Shown one piece after another: positions 46,473-59,041 of a stretch of 64,000 nucleotides of DNA. The position numbers and the translations under genes are program-made. The notes below the pieces were generated by a model. The model worked only from the letters and a program-made list of their open reading frames with translations, made no database searches and was not told the DNA's origin. Source of the DNA: Geothrix limicola (lineage in GTDB: Bacteria > Acidobacteriota > Holophagae > Holophagales > Holophagaceae); contig NZ_BSDE01000002.1 of NCBI RefSeq assembly GCF_030268085.1, positions 434,001 through 498,000 of the forward strand, read 5' to 3'. Each line of letters opens with the position of its first letter. Positions within the stretch are counted from its first letter, which is position 1.

Positions 46473-49400
46473 ATGCTGGATTCCGGAAGCGCCATGCCCT
46501 CACCCCATTCCCTTCACCTACGGCCCACTTGGGCGGCCCTGGCCGCCTTCGCGTTGGCTGCGCAGGCGCACCTGGGAGAGGACGACCTTCAGCTTGAAAC
46601 GCAGGCTGGAGGCCAGGTTCGACACATTTCGATCGACCCTTCAACCTTCGGATCCGCCGCGGAACTCGCGCAGATCCTCGGCGAAAGCCTAGACCCGGCA
46701 ACCCTAAATTTCGAGATCCGAGGCTGGGCCGCATCGGGCGGAGCGGTGCTATCGGGGCGCCTCGATATCTCGGATCTCCGCGCCGAACGGAGCCTCACTC
46801 CGGGATCCAGCCTCTGGATCTCCCGCCACGTCCAGCGCCTCTTCGAGGCTCTCACCCAGTCACCCGAGACTCCCTGCGAAGACTTGTCCATGCTGGATTC
46901 CGAAGAGCGGGCCCTGCTTCTGGGGGCCTTTTCAGGACCGGCCCACGATCCCGGCCTCACACGCGCAGAGACCCTGCCCCGGATCTTCGAGGAAACGGCG
47001 CGCCTCCGCCCCGACCTTGCGGCCCTCGAGGTGGATGGCCGCACGCAAACCTATGCGGAGCTGGAAGCCGAAGCCGAGCGGATCGGCCGCCAGCTTCAAG
47101 CCTTGGGTCTAGGCCGCGGGTCGCTCGTCGGGCACTGGTTCCCCCGCGGTGGCGGCGCCCACGCGGCCCTGCTCGGCATCCTGAAGGCGGGCGCCGCCTA
47201 CGTGCCCCTGGACCCGGACCTGCCGCCGGCCCGCCTGCGCCAGGTGGTCGTGGAATGCCGCATGGACCTGCTGCTGACGCCACGTTCCCAGGGCGCCAGC
47301 CTCGATCTGCCCTGCCCGCGCCTCGACCAGGCCGTGGACGTCGAGGAGGCACGCGTCACCCTTCTGCCCGTCGACCCCAGTCCAGATGGCCCCAGTCCCG
47401 ACGATCTCGCCTACGTCATCTTCACGTCGGGTTCCACGGGCACGCCCAAGGGCGTGCCCATCACGCACCGCTCGGCCTGCACCCTCGTGCGCGCCGAGCA
47501 GCGCCTCTTCGCCGTCACGCCCGGGGATCGCGTGTTCCAGGGATTCTCTCTGGCCTTCGACGCCTCCGTGGAGGAGCTGTGGCTGGCCTGGGCCAATGGG
47601 GCCTGCCTGGTGGTGGGCACCAAGGCCCTGATGCAGTCCGGGCCGGACCTGGGCAGGCGGCTGGGCGAGTTGGGCATCACCGTCTGGTCCACCGTGCCCA
47701 CCCTCCTCGGCCTCCTGAACGACCCCGTTCCGACCCTGCGCCTGCTCATCCTCGGCGGCGAGGCCTGCCCGCCGGATCTGGTCGCACGCTGGTGGCGGCC
47801 CGACCTGCGCATGGTGAACACCTACGGCCCCACGGAAGCCACCGTCATCTCCACCTGGACGGACCTGCATCCCGACCGCCCCGTCAGCATCGGCAAGGCC
47901 GTGCCCAACGACCGCGTGTACGTGCTGGATGCCCGCGGCCGCCTCTGCCCCATCGGCGTGCCCGGTGAGCTGCACCTGTCCGGCGTCGGCCTGTCCCAGG
48001 GCTACCTGGGCCGCCCGGAGTTGACGGCGGAACGCTTCATCCCGAATCCCTACGCCGACGGCCCCTTCACCGAGCGGCTCTACCGCACGGGGGATCGCGT
48101 CCGCTTCAACGACGACGGCGATCTGGAATTCCTCGGCCGCATCGATACGCAGGTGAAACTGCGGGGCTTCCGCATCGAGCTGGAGGAGATCGAAGCTTCG
48201 CTGCGCCTGGATCCCGCCGTGCAGGCCGCCGCGGTGACACTCTGGAAGGAGGCGGGCCCCGAGCGGTTGGTGGCCTACGCGGTGCCCAGCCCCGGCGCCT
48301 CCTTCGATGAGGAGGGCCTCCTGCGGGGCTTGAGGGAACGCCTGCCCAGCTACATGGTTCCCAGCGCCGTCGAGGCACTGGACAGCCTGCCCACGCTCGC
48401 CAGCGGCAAACTGGATCGCAAGCGGCTTCCCGCGCCCCGCCACCGCGAGCCCATCGCGGCTCCCGCGGAGGATCTGACGCCCTGTCAGCAGCGCCTGAGG
48501 GCCACCTGGACCCGGCTCTTCTCGGGCCGCGCGCCGGGTCTCGACGAGAACTTCTTCAAGGATCTGGGCGGTCACTCCCTCCTGGCGGCGGCCATGGTCT
48601 CGGAACTCCGGCGGGAGCCCGATTTCGAAGGGCTCGCCGTCTCGGATGTCTACGCCTTCCCCACCCTCCGCGCCCTCGCCGCCGAATGCGAGGCCCGGAT
48701 CTCCCATCGCAGCGCCGCACCCGCGCTCGCACAAGAACCCGCGCCGAAGGCCGCACCCTGGCGGTTCCGCGCCTGCGCCCTGGCCCAGGCCCTGTCGCTC
48801 TACCCGCTGCTCGGCTTCTACGCCCTGCAGTGGCTCAGCCCCTACCTGGTCTACAGCTGGAGCCAGGATCACGATTTCTCGCGGCGCACCGGCATGCTGG
48901 CGGCCCTCGCCTCGCTGATCCTCGTCTACCCGGCGATGTACGGGCTGTCCATCCTCGCCAAGTGGGCGCTGCTGGGCCGCATGCGGCCGGGCCGCCATCC
49001 CATCTGGGGCTTCTACTACTGGCGCTGGTGGCTCGTGCAGCGGATCGTCGCCGCCACGCCCCTGGACTACCTCGTCGAATCGCCCTGGCTGCCTCTCTAC
49101 TACCGCCTCATGGGCGCCCGCATGGGCCGGAACGTGCACCTGGGCACCACCTCGCTGGCGGCCTTCGACCTCGTGGAGATCGGCGACGATGCAAGCATCG
49201 GCCAGGACGCGCGCCTGAGCGGCTACACGCTGGAGGACGGCTTCCTCCAGATCGGTCCCATCCACATCGGGCGCCGCTGCTACGTCGGCAACCGCTCCAT
49301 CCTCTGCCCGGGAACCGTGCTGGAGGACGGCGCCATGCTGGAGGACCTGAGCCTTCTGCCGGCCGGTGCGCGCATCGCCTCGGGCCAGCATTGGACGGGA

Positions 49401-51485
49401 TCTCCGGCCCAGCCCCTGCCGCCCACCGATTCTGACCAGCAGCGCCTGTCGGTGGATCTGCCCCGGCCCGCGCCCCTGCGGCGTATGGGATATGCCGCGG
49501 CCCAGGCCCTGGGCGCCTTCCTCATCCCCGTCGCCTTCCTCGCGGCCATCTTCCCGGGCCTGATCCTCATCAACGAGCTCTACGCGAACACCTCCGGCTA
49601 CTTCGCCTACCTGGTGGTGGCGCCCGCCGTGGGCCTCTCCTTCGTCGTGCTGCTGGCCCTGGAGATCGCGGCCGCCAAGTGGCTGCTGCTGGGGCGCGTG
49701 CGGCCCGGCACCTACGACCGGCAGGGCCCCTTCATCCTGCGCAAGTGGTTCGTGGATCGCCTCATGAGCCTGGGTCTGGACCTGCTCGCGCCGCTCTACG
49801 CGACCCTCTACCTGGCGCCCTGGTTCCGCCTCCTCGGCGCGCGGCTCGGCGCCTGGGCCGAGGTGTCCACGGCGGGTTCGGGATGTCCCGACCTGCTCGA
49901 TATCGGCGAAGAGAGCTTCATCGCCGATTGCGTCTCCTTCGGCCCGCCGCGGGTGGACCTGGGTCGCGTCACCCTCGCGCCCACGCGCGTGGGGCGCCGC
50001 GCCTTCGTGGGCAACAGCGCCCTCATCCCCTCAGGCACCACGCTGGGCGAAAGCGTGCTCGTGGGCGTGATGTCGGTGCCGCCCGTCGATCCGCTCGAAG
50101 CCGCCCGCGTGGACAGCTCCTGGCTCGGGTCCCCGGCCATCTACCTGCCACGCCGACAGGAGAGCTCCGCCTTCGGCGAGGAAACCACCTTCCGTCCGCC
50201 GCGCCGGATGATCCTGCTCCGCGCCTTCATCGAGCAGTTCCGCGTCATCGCCCCCGTCACGGGTTTCGTCGTCATCACCAGCCTGCTGCTCACGGCCATG
50301 ACCGAGATTGAAGAGGCCTTCTCCCTGAAGGTCGCGGCCCTCTCCCTGCCGGCCCTGTACTTCCTCGGCGGCCTGCTCGCCTGCTTCTTCGTGGTGGCCG
50401 TGAAGTGGCTGGTGATCGGCTTCTACCGCCCCAGCGAAAAGCCCCTCTGGTGCAGCTTCGTGTGGCGCACCGAACTGGTGAGCGGGCTCCATGAGAACCT
50501 GGCGGACTCCTGGCTGCTGCGCCTGCTGGTGGGCACGCCCTTCGTCCCCATCTACTTCCGGCTGCTGGGCTCGCACATCGGGCGCCGGGTGTGCATGGAA
50601 AGCACCTGGCTGACGGAGTTCGACCTCGTGAGGATCGGCGATGGGGCCCAGCTCAACGCGGATTGCACGGTCCAGACCCACCTCTTCGAAGATCGCGTGA
50701 TGAAGATGGACCGCATCGAGATCGGCCCGGGATGTTCGCTGGGGACGGATTCGGTGGTGCTCTACGGATCGCGCATGGAGGCGGGCTCCGTGCTGGGCGA
50801 CCTGTCCCTGCTCATGAAGGGGGAGTCGCTGCCGGCCGGCACCCGCTGGGAAGGCTCACCCGCGCGGCCCTCTAGCCGTCCGACGCCTCCCGCCCCGGCG
50901 CTGCCGGCGGCTCGCGAAGGCGCCGGGGGCGGGATCCACGTCTTCATCCAATCAGACACGCAACCTCATGCGCTGCCCGCCGAACTCGCCGATCAAGTGA
51001 TCCTGCTGAATCCGGATCCGCAGGGGCGGCCCCGGGCCATGGATGGCGAAGGCCGCCCCCTGACCATCAGCCGTTCCCGGGCCCTCGGCGTGCAGGTGCT
51101 CGCCCTGGCCGAAGGGGGCCGCCTCGGCGTGGATCTGGAACGGCTCCGCCCCTCCGAGGCCCTCCAGGCCGCCTCGAAGGCCTTCCTGCCCGCCGAACGG
51201 GACTGGGCCGATCGACAGCCTGAACCCCGATGGAAGGCCCTGCTCCGCCTCTGGACGGCCAAGGAAGCGATCCTCAAGGCCCTCGGCCACGGCTTCGCCA
51301 CGGGCCTGGATCAGGTGGAACTCGGCCCGGATGGGCGGGGCGGCCTCAAGCTCCTGCGGCTCTTCGGCCGGGAAGCGCTGGCCGAGGGCTGGCACCTCGA
51401 ATGCCGGGAACACGAGGTGGAAGGGCGGACCTACCTGCTGGCCCTGGCCAGGGCGACACCCTCCGTGGCCTCAACGGGTTCTTGA
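46473..51485 (+). CDS. Pls-like membrane non-ribosomal peptide synthetase with fused C-terminal phosphopantetheinyl transferase
   Basis: A 1670-residue single-module synthetase. Residues 1-155 are a poorly recognised lead-in whose end (SMLDSEERALLLGAF) resembles the tail of a condensation domain. The adenylation domain spans about 160-655 (YVIFTSGSTGTPKG near 313; YGPTEAT; LYRTGDRVRF; GKLDRKRL). A carrier domain follows with FFKDLGGHSLL, its Ser near residue 701. Then three repeats of two membrane spans plus a left-handed beta-helix-like domain occupy about 760-980, 1005-1225 and 1250-1465, the six-span, three-domain plan of Streptomyces epsilon-poly-lysine synthetase. The last 185 residues are an Sfp-type transferase: LGVDLERLRP (1550) and WTAKEAILKALGHG (1594). 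The eye-read pocket code resembles lysine. ATG 46494 is an alternative start. Product unproven. Confidence 0.88.
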   Translation: MLDSGSAMPSPHSLHLRPTWAALAAFALAAQAHLGEDDLQLETQAGGQVRHISIDPSTFGSAAELAQILGESLDPATLNFEIRGWAASGGAVLSGRLDISDLRAERSLTPGSSLWISRHVQRLFEALTQSPETPCEDLSMLDSEERALLLGAFSGPAHDPGLTRAETLPRIFEETARLRPDLAALEVDGRTQTYAELEAEAERIGRQLQALGLGRGSLVGHWFPRGGGAHAALLGILKAGAAYVPLDPDLPPARLRQVVVECRMDLLLTPRSQGASLDLPCPRLDQAVDVEEARVTLLPVDPSPDGPSPDDLAYVIFTSGSTGTPKGVPITHRSACTLVRAEQRLFAVTPGDRVFQGFSLAFDASVEELWLAWANGACLVVGTKALMQSGPDLGRRLGELGITVWSTVPTLLGLLNDPVPTLRLLILGGEACPPDLVARWWRPDLRMVNTYGPTEATVISTWTDLHPDRPVSIGKAVPNDRVYVLDARGRLCPIGVPGELHLSGVGLSQGYLGRPELTAERFIPNPYADGPFTERLYRTGDRVRFNDDGDLEFLGRIDTQVKLRGFRIELEEIEASLRLDPAVQAAAVTLWKEAGPERLVAYAVPSPGASFDEEGLLRGLRERLPSYMVPSAVEALDSLPTLASGKLDRKRLPAPRHREPIAAPAEDLTPCQQRLRATWTRLFSGRAPGLDENFFKDLGGHSLLAAAMVSELRREPDFEGLAVSDVYAFPTLRALAAECEARISHRSAAPALAQEPAPKAAPWRFRACALAQALSLYPLLGFYALQWLSPYLVYSWSQDHDFSRRTGMLAALASLILVYPAMYGLSILAKWALLGRMRPGRHPIWGFYYWRWWLVQRIVAATPLDYLVESPWLPLYYRLMGARMGRNVHLGTTSLAAFDLVEIGDDASIGQDARLSGYTLEDGFLQIGPIHIGRRCYVGNRSILCPGTVLEDGAMLEDLSLLPAGARIASGQHWTGSPAQPLPPTDSDQQRLSVDLPRPAPLRRMGYAAAQALGAFLIPVAFLAAIFPGLILINELYANTSGYFAYLVVAPAVGLSFVVLLALEIAAAKWLLLGRVRPGTYDRQGPFILRKWFVDRLMSLGLDLLAPLYATLYLAPWFRLLGARLGAWAEVSTAGSGCPDLLDIGEESFIADCVSFGPPRVDLGRVTLAPTRVGRRAFVGNSALIPSGTTLGESVLVGVMSVPPVDPLEAARVDSSWLGSPAIYLPRRQESSAFGEETTFRPPRRMILLRAFIEQFRVIAPVTGFVVITSLLLTAMTEIEEAFSLKVAALSLPALYFLGGLLACFFVVAVKWLVIGFYRPSEKPLWCSFVWRTELVSGLHENLADSWLLRLLVGTPFVPIYFRLLGSHIGRRVCMESTWLTEFDLVRIGDGAQLNADCTVQTHLFEDRVMKMDRIEIGPGCSLGTDSVVLYGSRMEAGSVLGDLSLLMKGESLPAGTRWEGSPARPSSRPTPPAPALPAAREGAGGGIHVFIQSDTQPHALPAELADQVILLNPDPQGRPRAMDGEGRPLTISRSRALGVQVLALAEGGRLGVDLERLRPSEALQAASKAFLPAERDWADRQPEPRWKALLRLWTAKEAILKALGHGFATGLDQVELGPDGRGGLKLLRLFGREALAEGWHLECREHEVEGRTYLLALARATPSVASTGS

Positions 51486-53249: not shown

Positions 53250-56200
53250 GTGGACGTGACGCGCTTTCTCGGCACCCACCGGTACACCTGGCTCATGGAC
53301 CTGGGCCGGGAAGAAGGCTGCAGCTGGCACCTCATGCGGCGGGAACTGGACGGCACCCGCTTCCTCGCCCAGATCTGGTCGCCCCTGCCCACGGATCGCG
53401 ACCTCGACCTCATCCGCGACACCTTCCTGGCGCGCTTCCTCGACGCCACCTCCCTGGATCCCGTCACCTGCCACGTGGGGTTCGACGGGGACCAGGCCTG
53501 GTACATCCAGGCGCTCCAGGGCACGCCGCTTTCCCGCCTCTGGGCCGGCTGGGGAGAACCCCAGCGCGCGGCCCTGATGGAGCACCTCGCGGCCTGTCTT
53601 GGGCAGGATCCGCATCCACGTTTCCTGCATCCCGAGGTCATCACCCTCCGGCCGGGCCTCTCCCAGATTCCCCGGGTCATCGGGGATTCCCCCTGGGGAC
53701 TGGAAGCCATTCCCGGATTCCTGCCCCAGACGGCGCCCGTGCCGGCCCTGTCCGAGGACCTGCCCTGGCATCAGACCCGGGACCTGTCCGAACCCCTCTC
53801 GCACCCTTTGCGCGGCCGCGGCCAGGAACTGCCCTACCTCAAGTCCCTCATGCTGGGCTTCAGCGCCCCCATCCCCATGGAGCGGATCGTCCTCCTGCAG
53901 GGCGAGGAAGGCGTGGGCAAGGAGCAACTGGCTACCTGGGCCTGCGCCGTGGCGGAGGGCGAGGGCATCTGGGTCCACCACCTGGCGGCCTCCGCCGATG
54001 AATCGCCGGGCCGCTTCCTGGGCCGCCTGCTCGAAGCCCTCCTCATGGGCAGCGAGGTGGATTTCTACGCCGAGCGCCCCCAGGCCGCCAAGGTGCTGTC
54101 CCTCCGTGTGCAGGCTTTCGCCTTCCTCACGGGGGGCCGCCACGTGAACGGGCAGGAGGCCCTGCCGGAACCCGAGGAAGTGCGGGCGGCGATGGAGGCT
54201 CTGGATTTCGCGGGCCTCCTGCACCACCGCCTCATCCATCTGTCCGGCCTGGACCGCGCCACACCCGGCGTCCTCGCGCTGATCCGGGAGCTGGTCCACG
54301 CCTCGTCCATCCCCTGGTTGCTATCTCTCACCACCGGCGCCCAGGGGGCCGGCCTGAAGCCCTTCATCGCCCAGTTGCGCGGCGAGGCCTCCGCCGCCGT
54401 CGTGGGCGTGAACCGCCTGGCGGACGAGGACCTTCGCATGGTCCTCAACGATCTGCTCGACCGCCACGATCTGCCTGAATCCTTCCAATCCGATCTGATC
54501 GCCCAAAGCCTGGGCAACCCGGGCCTGCTGCGGAATTTCCTGGAGCTGGCCCATCAATCCGGAACCCTGGCCTGGGATCGGGACCGCTGGATCCTCGCCC
54601 CGGGCCAGCCCGTGGCCCTGAAGGCCGAAGATGACCTCATGCGCCAGATCTTCCTGGGGCGGCTGCAGCGGCTGACTCCCGCTTCCGCGACCCTCGTGCG
54701 CCTGGTGGCGCTGGCGGAGCAGCCCCTGCCGACCTCCACGCTGGGACGCCTGCTCGGACTGGAAGGCGATGCGCTGGAGGATGCCCTCCATGTCGCTGCC
54801 GGGTCCCAGCTGGCGCAGCTGCATCGGGGCCAGGTCCAGATCCCCGATCCCCGCTGGCGCGAGCTGGTGCTTTCGCACACGCCCCAGCCCGAGCTCAAGC
54901 GCCTCGCACGGGCGCTGTCGGCGGTCTTCCAGGAGCAGGGCTGGAGCTGTTCCGTCCCCCTCCAATCGCTCGCTTCGGACGAGGCCACCGCCCTTGCCGC
55001 CGTGCTGGAATCGCTGGAGCACGCCCATCCCGGCCACCCGGCGGAAACGCGCCGCATCGTGGGCCAGGCGCTTCAATTGAAACCGTCGCCCAAGGACGAG
55101 GCGCGGCTGCACGAGCACCTGGCGGACGCCTGGACCTTCGGAGTCCCCGCCCCCGGCGAAACGGCCGGGCACAGTTCCTCTGAAGAGGCCCTCCTGTCGC
55201 TGGGGCGCGCCCTCGAGGCCCTGTCCCGCGCCCCCCATGACGAGGGGATCCGCCTCAAGGAGGCCCGCCTCTACCGCAAGCGAGCCATGCTGCATCTTCA
55301 TCTGCGCCACCCCGCCGAGGCCCAGGAAGCCCTTCATGCCGTGGCCGAACGCCTGGTGGGCCACCCGCATCACGCCGAACAGCCCCGCCTGCGCCTGGCC
55401 CTCGGCCGGCTGCACCTGCTCCAGGGGCACCTCGCCAAGGGGATCGCCGCACTGGAAGAGGGGCTCCACCCCGCCCAGGGCGGATTCAAGCCGCTGCCCG
55501 AGGACCAGGCCGACCTCATGCTGGCGCTGGGCCAGGCGCTGGGCGGGCAGTCTCGGTTCCTGCGCGCGGCCTCCATGCTCGAATCCGCCCAGCGGATGCT
55601 GGAGCACCGGCAGGGATTCCGGAGCCTGGTCCCCGTGCAGATCGCCCTGGCCAACGTGCGCCTGGCCCAGGGCCAATCGGAATCCAGCGTCCTCCTGCTG
55701 CGCGAGGCCCTGCAGACCGCCCGCATGCAGGGCGACACCGCCCTCCAGGCCCAGGGCCACCTCGCGCTCGGCCGCCTGCGCAGCCTGCAGCAGTTCCTCG
55801 GCCCCGCGCTCTCCCACCTCGATCGCGCCCTCAGCCGCGCCCAGCAACTGGGCGATACGGCCCAGGTGGCCCTCATCCAGATCTGGCGGGCCCGCAGCTA
55901 CGCCGCCCTGGGCGATACCGTGGCCGCCGACCACGCCCAGTTCCAGGCCCTGGCCGCCAAACCCGCCCTGATGTCGCCCGAGGAACAGGGGGATCACCTC
56001 TTCCTGCAGGGTGAAGTCGCGCGCTTCCGGAGCGCCTGGCGGGATGCGGGGCGGCTCTTCAAGGCCGCCGCCGACCACTACGAATCCACGGGCCTGGTCT
56101 GGCGCCAGAGGCTGGCCCTGCTCCGCTTCAGCCAGGCCCTGGCCCGCGAGGCCCGCCAGGCGCATCAGGCGGCCCCCGAACAGGGCTGGGCGATCCTGGA

Positions 56201-56657
56201 AAACCTGAAGGGGCTGGTCGAAGGTTCGGGATCGCGCTGGCTCGATCTGGAATGGCACCGCGCCCACGCCCTGCTGCTTTCCATCGTGCCCGCCACCGAG
56301 GCGGTGGTTCAGGAGGCCCTGGAAGCCTGGAGCGAGGTCCAGGCCGCGGCCCGGGACATGCAATTCCCCGCCCAGATCCTGGAGGCCAGCGCCGAGGGGG
56401 CCCAGCTGCTGCTGCAGCGGGGCGAGAAGCTGGGCGCCCGTGCCCGCATGCAGGACGCCTTCCCCAGCTTCCAGCAGCTCTGGACGCGGCTGCCCGCGGA
56501 ACAGGAAACGACCTTCCTCGGCCGGGAGGACATGCACCGCTTCCGGCAGACCGTGGAGGCCGTCGGCCTCAAGTTCATCCAGCCCGAACGCGCCGATCCC
56601 CTCGTGGACTGGACCCCCACCCAGATGAACCTGCCGGCCTTCCCCGATCCCGAATGA
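53250..56657 (+). CDS. STAND-like ATPase/TPR protein with degenerate P-loop
   Basis: A 1135-residue protein. Residues 1-150 have the flavour of a degenerate Ser/Thr kinase domain (WYIQALQGTPLSRLW ... LMEHLAACL) without catalytic motifs. Residues 190-480 resemble an AAA/STAND ATPase: HPLRGRGQELPYLKSLM, then VLLQGEEGVGKEQLATWA, where the P-loop Ser/Thr is replaced by Glu, and HRLIHLSGLD in place of a clean Walker B. Helical TPR-like repeats fill about 640-1080 (ALGRLHLLQGHLAKGIAALEEGL; ALANVRLAQGQSESSVLLLREAL). The only starts open in this frame are GTG 53250 and GTG 53256, with a stop at 53229-53231. A 16-codon frame from ATG 53209 ends inside the start region, so the true N-terminus may be frameshifted. 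Role unknown. Confidence 0.75.
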   Translation: MDVTRFLGTHRYTWLMDLGREEGCSWHLMRRELDGTRFLAQIWSPLPTDRDLDLIRDTFLARFLDATSLDPVTCHVGFDGDQAWYIQALQGTPLSRLWAGWGEPQRAALMEHLAACLGQDPHPRFLHPEVITLRPGLSQIPRVIGDSPWGLEAIPGFLPQTAPVPALSEDLPWHQTRDLSEPLSHPLRGRGQELPYLKSLMLGFSAPIPMERIVLLQGEEGVGKEQLATWACAVAEGEGIWVHHLAASADESPGRFLGRLLEALLMGSEVDFYAERPQAAKVLSLRVQAFAFLTGGRHVNGQEALPEPEEVRAAMEALDFAGLLHHRLIHLSGLDRATPGVLALIRELVHASSIPWLLSLTTGAQGAGLKPFIAQLRGEASAAVVGVNRLADEDLRMVLNDLLDRHDLPESFQSDLIAQSLGNPGLLRNFLELAHQSGTLAWDRDRWILAPGQPVALKAEDDLMRQIFLGRLQRLTPASATLVRLVALAEQPLPTSTLGRLLGLEGDALEDALHVAAGSQLAQLHRGQVQIPDPRWRELVLSHTPQPELKRLARALSAVFQEQGWSCSVPLQSLASDEATALAAVLESLEHAHPGHPAETRRIVGQALQLKPSPKDEARLHEHLADAWTFGVPAPGETAGHSSSEEALLSLGRALEALSRAPHDEGIRLKEARLYRKRAMLHLHLRHPAEAQEALHAVAERLVGHPHHAEQPRLRLALGRLHLLQGHLAKGIAALEEGLHPAQGGFKPLPEDQADLMLALGQALGGQSRFLRAASMLESAQRMLEHRQGFRSLVPVQIALANVRLAQGQSESSVLLLREALQTARMQGDTALQAQGHLALGRLRSLQQFLGPALSHLDRALSRAQQLGDTAQVALIQIWRARSYAALGDTVAADHAQFQALAAKPALMSPEEQGDHLFLQGEVARFRSAWRDAGRLFKAAADHYESTGLVWRQRLALLRFSQALAREARQAHQAAPEQGWAILENLKGLVEGSGSRWLDLEWHRAHALLLSIVPATEAVVQEALEAWSEVQAAARDMQFPAQILEASAEGAQLLLQRGEKLGARARMQDAFPSFQQLWTRLPAEQETTFLGREDMHRFRQTVEAVGLKFIQPERADPLVDWTPTQMNLPAFPDPE

Positions 56658-56718: not shown

Positions 56719-57582
56719 ATGAGCCACCTGCCCGCCGAATCCCGCACCCACGTCACCCTGCCCCAGCTGAACGCCTGGTACCACGCGGGACGCAAACTGG
56801 TGATGACCACCGCCTACGATGCCGTGACGGCACGCATCGCGGACGCCGCGGGGGTGGACCTCATCCTCGTGGGCGACAGCGTGGGGAACGTGTGCCTGGG
56901 CTTCGAGAACACCCTGCCCGTCAGCATGGCCATGATGAACCACCATCTGGAGGCCGTGGCCCGCACCCATCCCACGGCCATGCTGCTGGCCGACATGCCC
57001 TACCTGAGCTTCCACCTCAGCGTGGAGGACACCCTGCGCAACGCTGGGGGATTCCTCCAGCGCGGGGCCCAGGGGGTCAAGCTCGAGGGGGGCGCCAAGC
57101 GCCTGCCCATGATCCACGCCCTCATCGATGCCGAAATCCCCGTCATGGGCCACCTGGGGCTCACACCCCAGAGCGTGAACCCCATGGGCGGCTTCAAGGT
57201 GCAGGGCAAGCACAAGGGCGACGCCCTCCGCCTGCTGGAGGACGCCCAGAAGCTGCAGGACGCGGGCTGCTTCGGCCTGGTGCTCGAAGGCATTCCCGCG
57301 GACCTGGCGGCCAAGGTCACCGAAACCGTCGAGATCCCCACGATCGGAATCGGAGCCGGCCCCCAGTGTTCGGGACAGGTGCTCGTCTTCCACGACATCC
57401 TGGGCCTGCTGCCCGGCAGCTCCCCCAAATTCGTCCGGCGATATGCCGAGGGATTCGAAGACCTACGCACGGCGCTCGCCGCCTGGGCCGAGGATGTCCG
57501 GGGGGGAGGGTTCCCGGATGGCCGCGAATCCTATACCCTTCCAGAAGCCGTTCGTCCGGCTTTGACCCAGTGGCGCCCCTGA
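56719..57582 (+). CDS. panB: 3-methyl-2-oxobutanoate hydroxymethyltransferase PanB
   Basis: First committed step to pantoate, using methylene-tetrahydrofolate; 287 residues. MTTAYDAVTARIADAAGVDLILVGDSVGNV includes the Mg-binding Asp and the substrate loop. ADMPYLSFHLS, GAQGVKLEGG and PVMGHLGLTPQSVNPMGGFKVQGK are signatures, and FGLVLEGIPADLA holds the catalytic Glu. GIGAGPQCSGQVLVFHDILGL closes the barrel. It heads panB-panC-panD, with 46 bases before panC. Confidence 0.96.
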   Translation: MSHLPAESRTHVTLPQLNAWYHAGRKLVMTTAYDAVTARIADAAGVDLILVGDSVGNVCLGFENTLPVSMAMMNHHLEAVARTHPTAMLLADMPYLSFHLSVEDTLRNAGGFLQRGAQGVKLEGGAKRLPMIHALIDAEIPVMGHLGLTPQSVNPMGGFKVQGKHKGDALRLLEDAQKLQDAGCFGLVLEGIPADLAAKVTETVEIPTIGIGAGPQCSGQVLVFHDILGLLPGSSPKFVRRYAEGFEDLRTALAAWAEDVRGGGFPDGRESYTLPEAVRPALTQWRP

Positions 57583-57628
57583 AGCAGCCCTTGGTAAGCT
57601 GGCAGGCACCTTCGGAAGGATCCCGCTT

Positions 57629-58525
57629 TTGTCCATGCGAGTTGTACGTACCATCGCTGATCTTCGCGCCCTCCTCCGTCCCTTGAGGGAGGAGGGCAAG
57701 CGCATCGGCTTCGTCCCCACCATGGGATTCCTGCACGAGGGCCACGGGGCCCTGATCCGCCAGAGCGCCGCCCGCTGCGATGCGACGGTGGTTTCAATCT
57801 TCGTGAACCCCACCCAATTCGGCCCCAACGAAGACCTGGCCAGCTACCCCCGCGACCTGGAACGAGACCAGAACCTCTGCCTGGAGGCCGAGGCCACGGT
57901 GCTCTTCCTGCCCGAAGTCGCCGAAATCTACCCCACGGGCTTCCAGACCCACATCGAGCCCGGCCGCCTTGCCGAGCCCCTCTGCGGCCGCTTCCGCCCG
58001 GGCCATTTCCGGGGCGTGGCCACCGTGGTCGCCAAGCTCTTCAACATGGTGCAGCCAGACCTGGCCTTCTTCGGCCAGAAGGATTTCCAGCAGACCGTCG
58101 TCATCCGGCGCATGGCCCGGGATCTGAACCTGCCCGTGGACGTGGTGGTGGTGCCCACCATCCGCGAGGCCGACGGCCTCGCCCTCAGCAGCCGCAACAC
58201 CTACCTGGACGAGGAGGCCCGCCGCCGGGCCCTTTCCCTGAGCGAGGGTCTGATGGCCGCCAAGGCTGCCTTCGAGGCCGGGGAGCGCGATGCCCAGGCC
58301 CTCCTGGACAAGGCCCGCGGCCCCCTCAGCGCCGTGGATTCCGTGCAGTACCTGGAGCTGGTGGACACCCAGAACCTGGAGCCCATCCAGGGCCAGGTGG
58401 ATCGCACGGCCGCCCTCTGTGTTGCGGCCTATGTCGGCACCACCCGACTCATCGATAACGTCATCCTGGCCCTCACCCCCGCCGACGCCGGCCTTAGCGT
58501 AACCAGAAGCACCCAAAGCCTTTAA
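57629..58525 (+). CDS. panC: Pantothenate synthetase PanC
   Basis: Joins pantoate and beta-alanine with ATP; 298 residues. FVPTMGFLHEGHGALIR holds the HxGH nucleotide site. FVNPTQFGPNEDLASYPRDLERD binds pantoate. FFGQKDFQQTVVIRRM and LALSSRNTYLDEEAR (the KMSKS-like loop) follow. TTG 57629 has GGAAGGA eight bases upstream, whereas ATG 57635 two codons later is spaced less well; either gives essentially the same protein. Confidence 0.95.
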   Translation: MSMRVVRTIADLRALLRPLREEGKRIGFVPTMGFLHEGHGALIRQSAARCDATVVSIFVNPTQFGPNEDLASYPRDLERDQNLCLEAEATVLFLPEVAEIYPTGFQTHIEPGRLAEPLCGRFRPGHFRGVATVVAKLFNMVQPDLAFFGQKDFQQTVVIRRMARDLNLPVDVVVVPTIREADGLALSSRNTYLDEEARRRALSLSEGLMAAKAAFEAGERDAQALLDKARGPLSAVDSVQYLELVDTQNLEPIQGQVDRTAALCVAAYVGTTRLIDNVILALTPADAGLSVTRSTQSL

Positions 58526-58642
58526 TCATTCAACCAGAAGATCCGTTCCCTGAGAAAAAAACGAGGCTGGACCCAAGGTAATCCTGAGTCCATGCTTATG
58601 CGTTGGCCGGGACTCCCGTACGGAGCCTGGACCGGAGGATGC

Positions 58643-59041
58643 ATGCTACGTCACTTCCTGCTCGGAAAGATCCATCGCGCCACCGTGACGAGGGCCGACC
58701 TGGACTACGTGGGATCGATCACCCTGGATCCGCTGCTCATCGAAGCCGCCGGGTTCATGGAGAACGAGAAAATCGATATCTACGACGTCACCAACGGCTC
58801 CCGCCTATCCACCTACGTGATCCCCGGCGTGCCCGGTTCCGGTGAAGTCGGCATCAACGGCGCCGCCGCCCACCTGGTGAACGCGGGTGATCTGGTGATC
58901 ATCGCCGCCTACGGCTGGATGACCGCCGAAGAGGCCGAGACCGTGGCCCCCAAGGTGGTCTTCGTGGACGAGCGCAACCGCATCACCGAGCGCCGCACCC
59001 AGGAGCGCACGCCCCTCTGCGTCGCCGCCTTCACCGACTGA
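58643..59041 (+). CDS. panD: Aspartate 1-decarboxylase PanD
   Basis: Pyruvoyl enzyme making beta-alanine from aspartate; 132 residues. The precursor self-cleaves at Gly-Ser in [16 protein letters not shown], generating the pyruvoyl group from the Ser. [12 protein letters not shown] and [25 protein letters not shown] are family hallmarks. ATG 58643 follows GGAGG at four bases; an upstream in-frame ATG (58592) would give an atypical extension. It completes the panB-panC-panD set; the pathway supplies CoA and hence carrier-protein arms. Confidence 0.94.

Follow-up and report, generated by a model that had tools for sequence, protein, structure and literature searches.

The locus described here lies in a 64,000-nucleotide stretch of the Geothrix limicola genome (the window), on the forward strand of which positions 46473 to 51485 form a single unbroken reading frame of 1670 amino acids. 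The encoded enzyme is a non-ribosomal peptide synthetase (NRPS) of the Pls/PosA family. In a profile search, TIGR02353, the "Pls/PosA family NRPS" profile, matched residues 771-1464 over its full length with 683.9 bits, far above its cut-off of 423.1, and TIGR01733 matched the same protein with 421 against a cut-off of 317. Pfam matches, all above their cut-offs, were obtained for AMP-binding (172-512), AMP-binding_C (572-646), PP-binding (688-737) and ACPS (PF01648, 1551-1643), and no condensation (C) or thioesterase (TE) domain was reported by the Pfam and TIGR profiles. The initial annotation, made from the letters alone, had described one frame with an adenylation domain, a carrier domain bearing GGHSLL, and a terminal phosphopantetheinyl transferase (PPTase) recognized by GVDLE and WTAKEA; all of these were located in the frame, with the motifs at residues 699-704, 1552-1556 and 1594-1599, respectively. 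Scanning the surroundings of the gene for promoters and terminators gave no match. The features of the gene are as follows.

46473..51485, + strand: Pls-type NRPS with a C-terminal PPTase, whole gene, 1670 aa (open reading frame, profile matches, orthologs)
46473..46952, + strand: N-terminal extension, aa 1-160, with no Pfam match and missing from several orthologs
46986..48437, + strand: adenylation (A) domain, aa 172-655, pocket code DAESIGTVIK (Pfam and TIGR matches, ortholog alignment)
48465..48707, + strand: carrier (T/PCP) domain, aa 665-745, with GGHS and the attachment residue Ser702 at 48576-48578 (Pfam, model)
48756..48971, + strand: membrane helices 1 and 2, aa 762-799 and 804-833 (model; hydropathy, strong for helix 2 and weaker for helix 1)
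49113..49421, + strand: left-handed beta-helix unit 1, aa ~881-983 (Pfam Hexapep match, model)
49473..49688, + strand: membrane helices 3 and 4, aa 1001-1039 and 1045-1072 (model, hydropathy)
49839..50144, + strand: left-handed beta-helix unit 2, aa ~1123-1224 (model, structure comparison)
50202..50414, + strand: membrane helices 5 and 6, aa 1244-1282 and 1285-1314 (model, hydropathy)
50568..50870, + strand: left-handed beta-helix unit 3, aa ~1366-1466, which holds QTHLFEDR at 50673-50696 (model, alignment)
50871..50942, + strand: linker, aa ~1467-1490, of low confidence in the model and fast-evolving (model, dN/dS)
50934..51458, + strand: fused PPTase domain, aa ~1488-1662 (Pfam, alignments, model, fold comparison)

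Residues 660-1670 were modelled with 50 natural homologs (mean pLDDT 90.7, pTM 0.79); the model begins with the T domain, continues with three repeats of two long helices and a left-handed beta-helix, and ends with the linker and the PPTase. The family's hallmarks, an A-T module upstream of three soluble domains and six membrane helices, are present by profile, model and hydropathy, and the earlier assignment to a Pls-type enzyme with six spans alternating with three beta-helix domains was upheld by these data and by the TIGR02353 score of 684 bits. The beta-helix units are similar in structure to hexapeptide acyltransferases and to gamma-carbonic anhydrases. The QTHLFEDR motif of the third unit is invariant in 50 of 50 Pls proteins, which makes His1403 a candidate catalytic residue. 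No solved structure of a Pls membrane domain surfaced in a search of the PDB, the top matches being only PPTases and hexapeptide beta-helix proteins. At the other end of the protein, the extension of about 150 residues aligns only at its end, with the NRPS sequence that precedes A domains. It is present in orthologous loci L004, L005 and L007-L009, absent from L006, L010-L013 and L015, and under weaker constraint than the remainder of the protein as judged by dN/dS. A condensation domain was considered for this segment and rejected, since no Pfam match was obtained even at E 10.

The C-terminal domain matches PF01648 with 56.9 bits, against a cut-off of 25. By sequence alone its similarity to PPTases of the PDB is weak (E 0.004-0.006), and therefore a fold comparison was needed. 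A model of the domain, for which 27 fused and free homologs were used, reached pLDDT 87.1 and pTM 0.83, and its top Foldseek matches were all PPTases. The comparison with Sfp that the initial annotation had proposed as a check came out in its favor: the best PDB match was Sfp-CoA-PCP (Bacillus Sfp, 4mrt; Z 14.8, rmsd 3.3 over 165 residues in VIA-align), and human AASDHPPT (2cg5) aligned almost as well (Z 14.7, rmsd 3.1 over 173 residues, also in VIA-align). The predicted structure thereby confirms a genuine PPTase fold. A chance motif match was also considered, and was rejected on the PF01648 profile and the fold comparison. Moreover, D1554, E1556, W1594, E1598 and K1602 are invariant across 27 Pls-linked PPTases, both fused and free. 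The two-lobed (pseudo-dimer) fold of Sfp-type enzymes is present in the model, with a reduced N-lobe. The long N-terminal helical segment of Sfp is missing, the FN.SH motif of the Sfp type was not found, and the position of the SHS motif reads S-R/Q/V/K/T, the His being lost. Over residues 92-181, the Bacillus Sfp reference used in these alignments is consistent with the PDB alignment. In Sfp, the N-terminal helical segment and the SHS His help bind CoA. The description of the domain as an Sfp-type transferase therefore stands for the fold and the catalytic residues but not for the N-terminal helical segment and the SHS His. The free Pls-linked PPTases of the Sphingomonas loci L084, L093, L094 and L100 are also without the N-terminal segment and SHS, possibly through independent loss.

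The fused form was found in 13 genomes of one Holophagaceae genus, this genome included (in G035 it is in fragments). In the tree of the shared part, the sole unfused genus member with this Pls, G020, falls among the fused forms, one of which is its sister (100/100), and its Pls and PPTase genes overlap by ATGA; this nesting points either to a secondary split or to a one-base assembly error. The separate genes of G020 might suggest that the single frame is itself a sequencing or assembly error that joined two genes. However, 12 further genomes have the fused frame, at 64-75% identity, all 13 were assembled separately, and for G020 a real split and a one-base homopolymer error are equally likely. 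We consider such an error hardly credible for the frame studied here, and reject it for the fusion in general. Between orthologs, dN/dS ranged from 0.14 to 0.42 in the PPTase core and from 0.18 to 0.32 in the A domain; it was 0.08-0.18 in the membrane domain and mostly higher in the linker. The PPTase core is under purifying selection and is constrained like the A domain. A second Pls paralog, 38-39% identical and without a fused PPTase, occurs in the same genus (G003:C248, G004:C16, G027:C199, G036:C212 and G031:C493).

We surveyed 80 Pls loci from GTDB genomes, five from Holophagaceae and 75 from other lineages. A long C-terminal tail was seen only in the five Holophagaceae loci, and none of the 75 others carries a Pls-PPTase fusion; nor was a fusion found outside this genus among the full-length TIGR02353 matches of a 396-genome sample of the phylum. 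In 33 of the 75, a separate PPTase reading frame lies directly downstream of Pls on the same strand, with its start between about 60 nt before and 11 nt after the Pls stop. Twelve of these 33 overlap Pls by 4 nt, and PF01648 scored above its cut-off in all 10 downstream PPTases tested. By record title, the paired loci include members of Verrucomicrobia, Bacteroidetes, Sphingomonadales, Caulobacterales, Sulfuriferula (a Betaproteobacterium), Eisenbacteria and two archaea-labelled MAGs, but the 33 pairs do not represent 33 independent cases, as about 24 of them are from Alphaproteobacteria. The fusion had been singled out as the unusual part of this enzyme; as a single frame it is indeed confined to one Holophagaceae genus, whereas the pairing of Pls with a separate PPTase is common. 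Closer relatives show the same arrangement. In G059, from another genus of the family, Pls and PPTase are two genes with a GTGA overlap, and in G113, of the same genus as G059, a PPTase adjoins a Pls; the distant Acidobacteriota Pls genes of G406 and G431 also have a neighboring PPTase. Since the two-gene unit is so widespread, the fusion looks like a joining of that unit, and thus like a derived form of the Pls-PPTase gene pair.

The only PPTases found in the genome are the fused domain and an AcpS on contig C5, with no second Sfp-like enzyme. Of its four carrier domains, the three outside this gene are in frames of about 90 aa, none of them NRPS-sized. Throughout the genus, the 14 genomes with this Pls all have both a linked PPTase and AcpS, and in the other 33 genomes only one PF01648 protein was found, except in G007, where a second one lies near another A-T gene. 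Relatives without the gene keep only AcpS; the PPTase therefore comes and goes with Pls. The fused gene sits between ctaB and the gene for a TPR protein, and complete relatives without Pls have an empty site, with the TPR gene directly after ctaB (in G033, at about 75 nt). The fused gene of G016 is at a different site. The gene behaves as an accessory insert, and hosts without an Sfp-type PPTase would be expected to favor a synthetase that brings its own. The TPR-like protein is large (53250-56657) and by eye has an ATP-binding-like region; its gene adjoins ctaB in relatives. The panB, panC and panD genes are found at 56719-59041, about 5 kb downstream of Pls. Their pathway supplies pantothenate, a precursor of CoA and phosphopantetheine. 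The panBC genes are also near the Pls gene in L035, as are panB and panC in L038. The proximity here may be coincidence, as relatives without Pls keep ctaB beside the TPR gene that precedes panB in this genome.

Lacking the N-terminal helical segment and the SHS His, the fused PPTase could be weak or inactive. At the extreme, it would have lost catalysis and be a structural or carrier-docking module, while the AcpS of contig C5 activates the T domain. Pls paralogs without an adjacent PPTase do occur in G031 and G049, where only one PF01648 protein was found per genome, and so a dedicated PPTase is not universally needed and AcpS may serve. However, none of the catalytic residues, the metal-binding Asp and Glu among them, varies in the 27 proteins, the core evolves under the same constraint as the A domain, and pure docking would not require D, E, KE and K together; loss of catalysis is, in our judgment, unlikely. 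We give even less weight to a role mainly in trans, in which the fused domain would serve other carriers as the general Sfp-type enzyme of the cell. That no other Sfp-like PPTase was found in the genome would fit such a role, but there are just the three other, small-frame carriers, and relatives without Pls manage with AcpS alone.

What the enzyme polymerizes can be approached through its pocket code. DAESIGTVIK, read by hand alignment to the GrsA positions, is identical in 11 orthologs. In PosA, pocket positions 1 and 3 are an Asp and a Glu that bind the substrate's two amines, Ala replaces PosA Met218 in lysine-activating members of the family, and the M218A change increases the use of lysine by PosA nearly tenfold (PMC10522769). 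DAESIGTVIK has both the family's Asp/Glu pair and the Ala typical of lysine-activating members, and the substrate suggested by this code is probably lysine, a best guess rather than a certainty. The code is identical to none of those that PMC10522769 gives in its main text, with no exact match to a characterized lysine enzyme, and pocket codes are degenerate within the Pls/PosA family. The same enzyme might therefore make a different polymer, from ornithine, diaminobutyrate, beta-lysine or another amine-bearing residue. We regard this as possible but less likely, given the lysine-type Ala and the effect of the corresponding change in PosA.

Taken together, we think it likely that the gene encodes a Pls/PosA-family synthetase that makes a cationic homo-poly(amino acid), most likely epsilon-poly-lysine or a close relative, and that comes with its own PPTase. 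We infer PPTase activity, priming in cis, substrate and product, and would picture the enzyme working as follows. The C-terminal PPTase would load the 4'-phosphopantetheine arm from CoA onto Ser702, either of the same chain or of a neighboring copy, and the A domain would activate lysine with ATP and then load it on that arm. The three membrane-anchored beta-helix units, arranged like a pseudo-trimer of hexapeptide acyltransferases, would form the side-chain isopeptide bonds and pass the polymer out at the membrane. In its fused form the gene probably arose from two overlapping genes, Pls followed by PPTase. Because the gene brings its own activator, it could function as an accessory insert where AcpS is otherwise the host's only PPTase, and the synthetase can probably work in a host with no other helper PPTase of this kind. 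More speculatively, and with slightly less than even confidence, we suggest that a co-inherited line of PPTases is dedicated to the Pls synthetases of several phyla and has repeatedly lost the CoA-binding N-half of Sfp, because each such PPTase acts only on a single carrier, tethered or co-translated. The fusion in Holophagaceae would then be the extreme case, a portable self-activating cassette.

Poly-lysine is an antimicrobial polymer, and in studies of synthetases of the poly-lysine type, PPTases such as Sfp have so far been added from outside. With its activator built in, a synthetase could be expressed in ordinary hosts without a helper enzyme, and such a version could explain the movement of these genes into bacteria that have no Sfp-type PPTase. 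The fused domain could also be used to test how little of Sfp suffices when the substrate is tethered, and the conserved Pls-PPTase pair offers a simple rule for locating the activating enzyme of uncharacterized homopolymer synthetases. Pls-type enzymes were already known, as were integrated PPTases in fungal fatty acid synthases (FASs) and bacterial polyketide synthases (PKSs). New here are the fusion as a derived gene pair, its status as the sole Sfp-like PPTase in the genome, the reduced Sfp features, and the accessory insert with its empty site. Our literature search, with most subscription journals outside its reach, found no paper on a Pls with a fused PPTase or on the conserved gene pair.

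Pls of Streptomyces albulus and PosA of Acinetobacter baumannii (TIGR02353) have the same A-T module, six spans and three soluble domains without a thioesterase, and the conserved Asp and Glu of their A-domain pocket are also seen here. However, in the described Pls/PosA enzymes the membrane domain is the last one and the PPTase has to come from outside, whereas in the present enzyme it is fused; PosA was treated with Sfp in vitro and is reported to be a single-gene operon (PMC10522769). The free PPTases downstream of Pls in Verrucomicrobia, Sphingomonadales, Bacteroidetes and others follow the same gene order as the fused domains, and several, mainly from Sphingomonadales, are likewise N-terminally reduced and without SHS, but they are encoded by separate, often overlapping genes rather than in one frame. 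With the Sfp-type PPTases (Bacillus Sfp, 4mrt; human AASDHPPT, 2cg5), the fused domain shares the fold (Z 14.7-14.8) and the catalytic residues, whereas it lacks their N-terminal helical segment and SHS His and spans about 175 aa rather than about 225. Integrated PPTases that activate their carrier in cis are known from fungal FASs and bacterial PKSs (PMC3909215). In fungal type I FAS (2was/2wat) and bacterial PKSs, as here, the PPTase is C-terminal on the enzyme that it serves. The fungal FAS domain is AcpS-like in size, whereas here both pseudo-halves are present, the first being reduced; and while those PPTases sit in fatty acid or polyketide synthases, the partner in this gene is a membrane poly(amino acid) synthetase.
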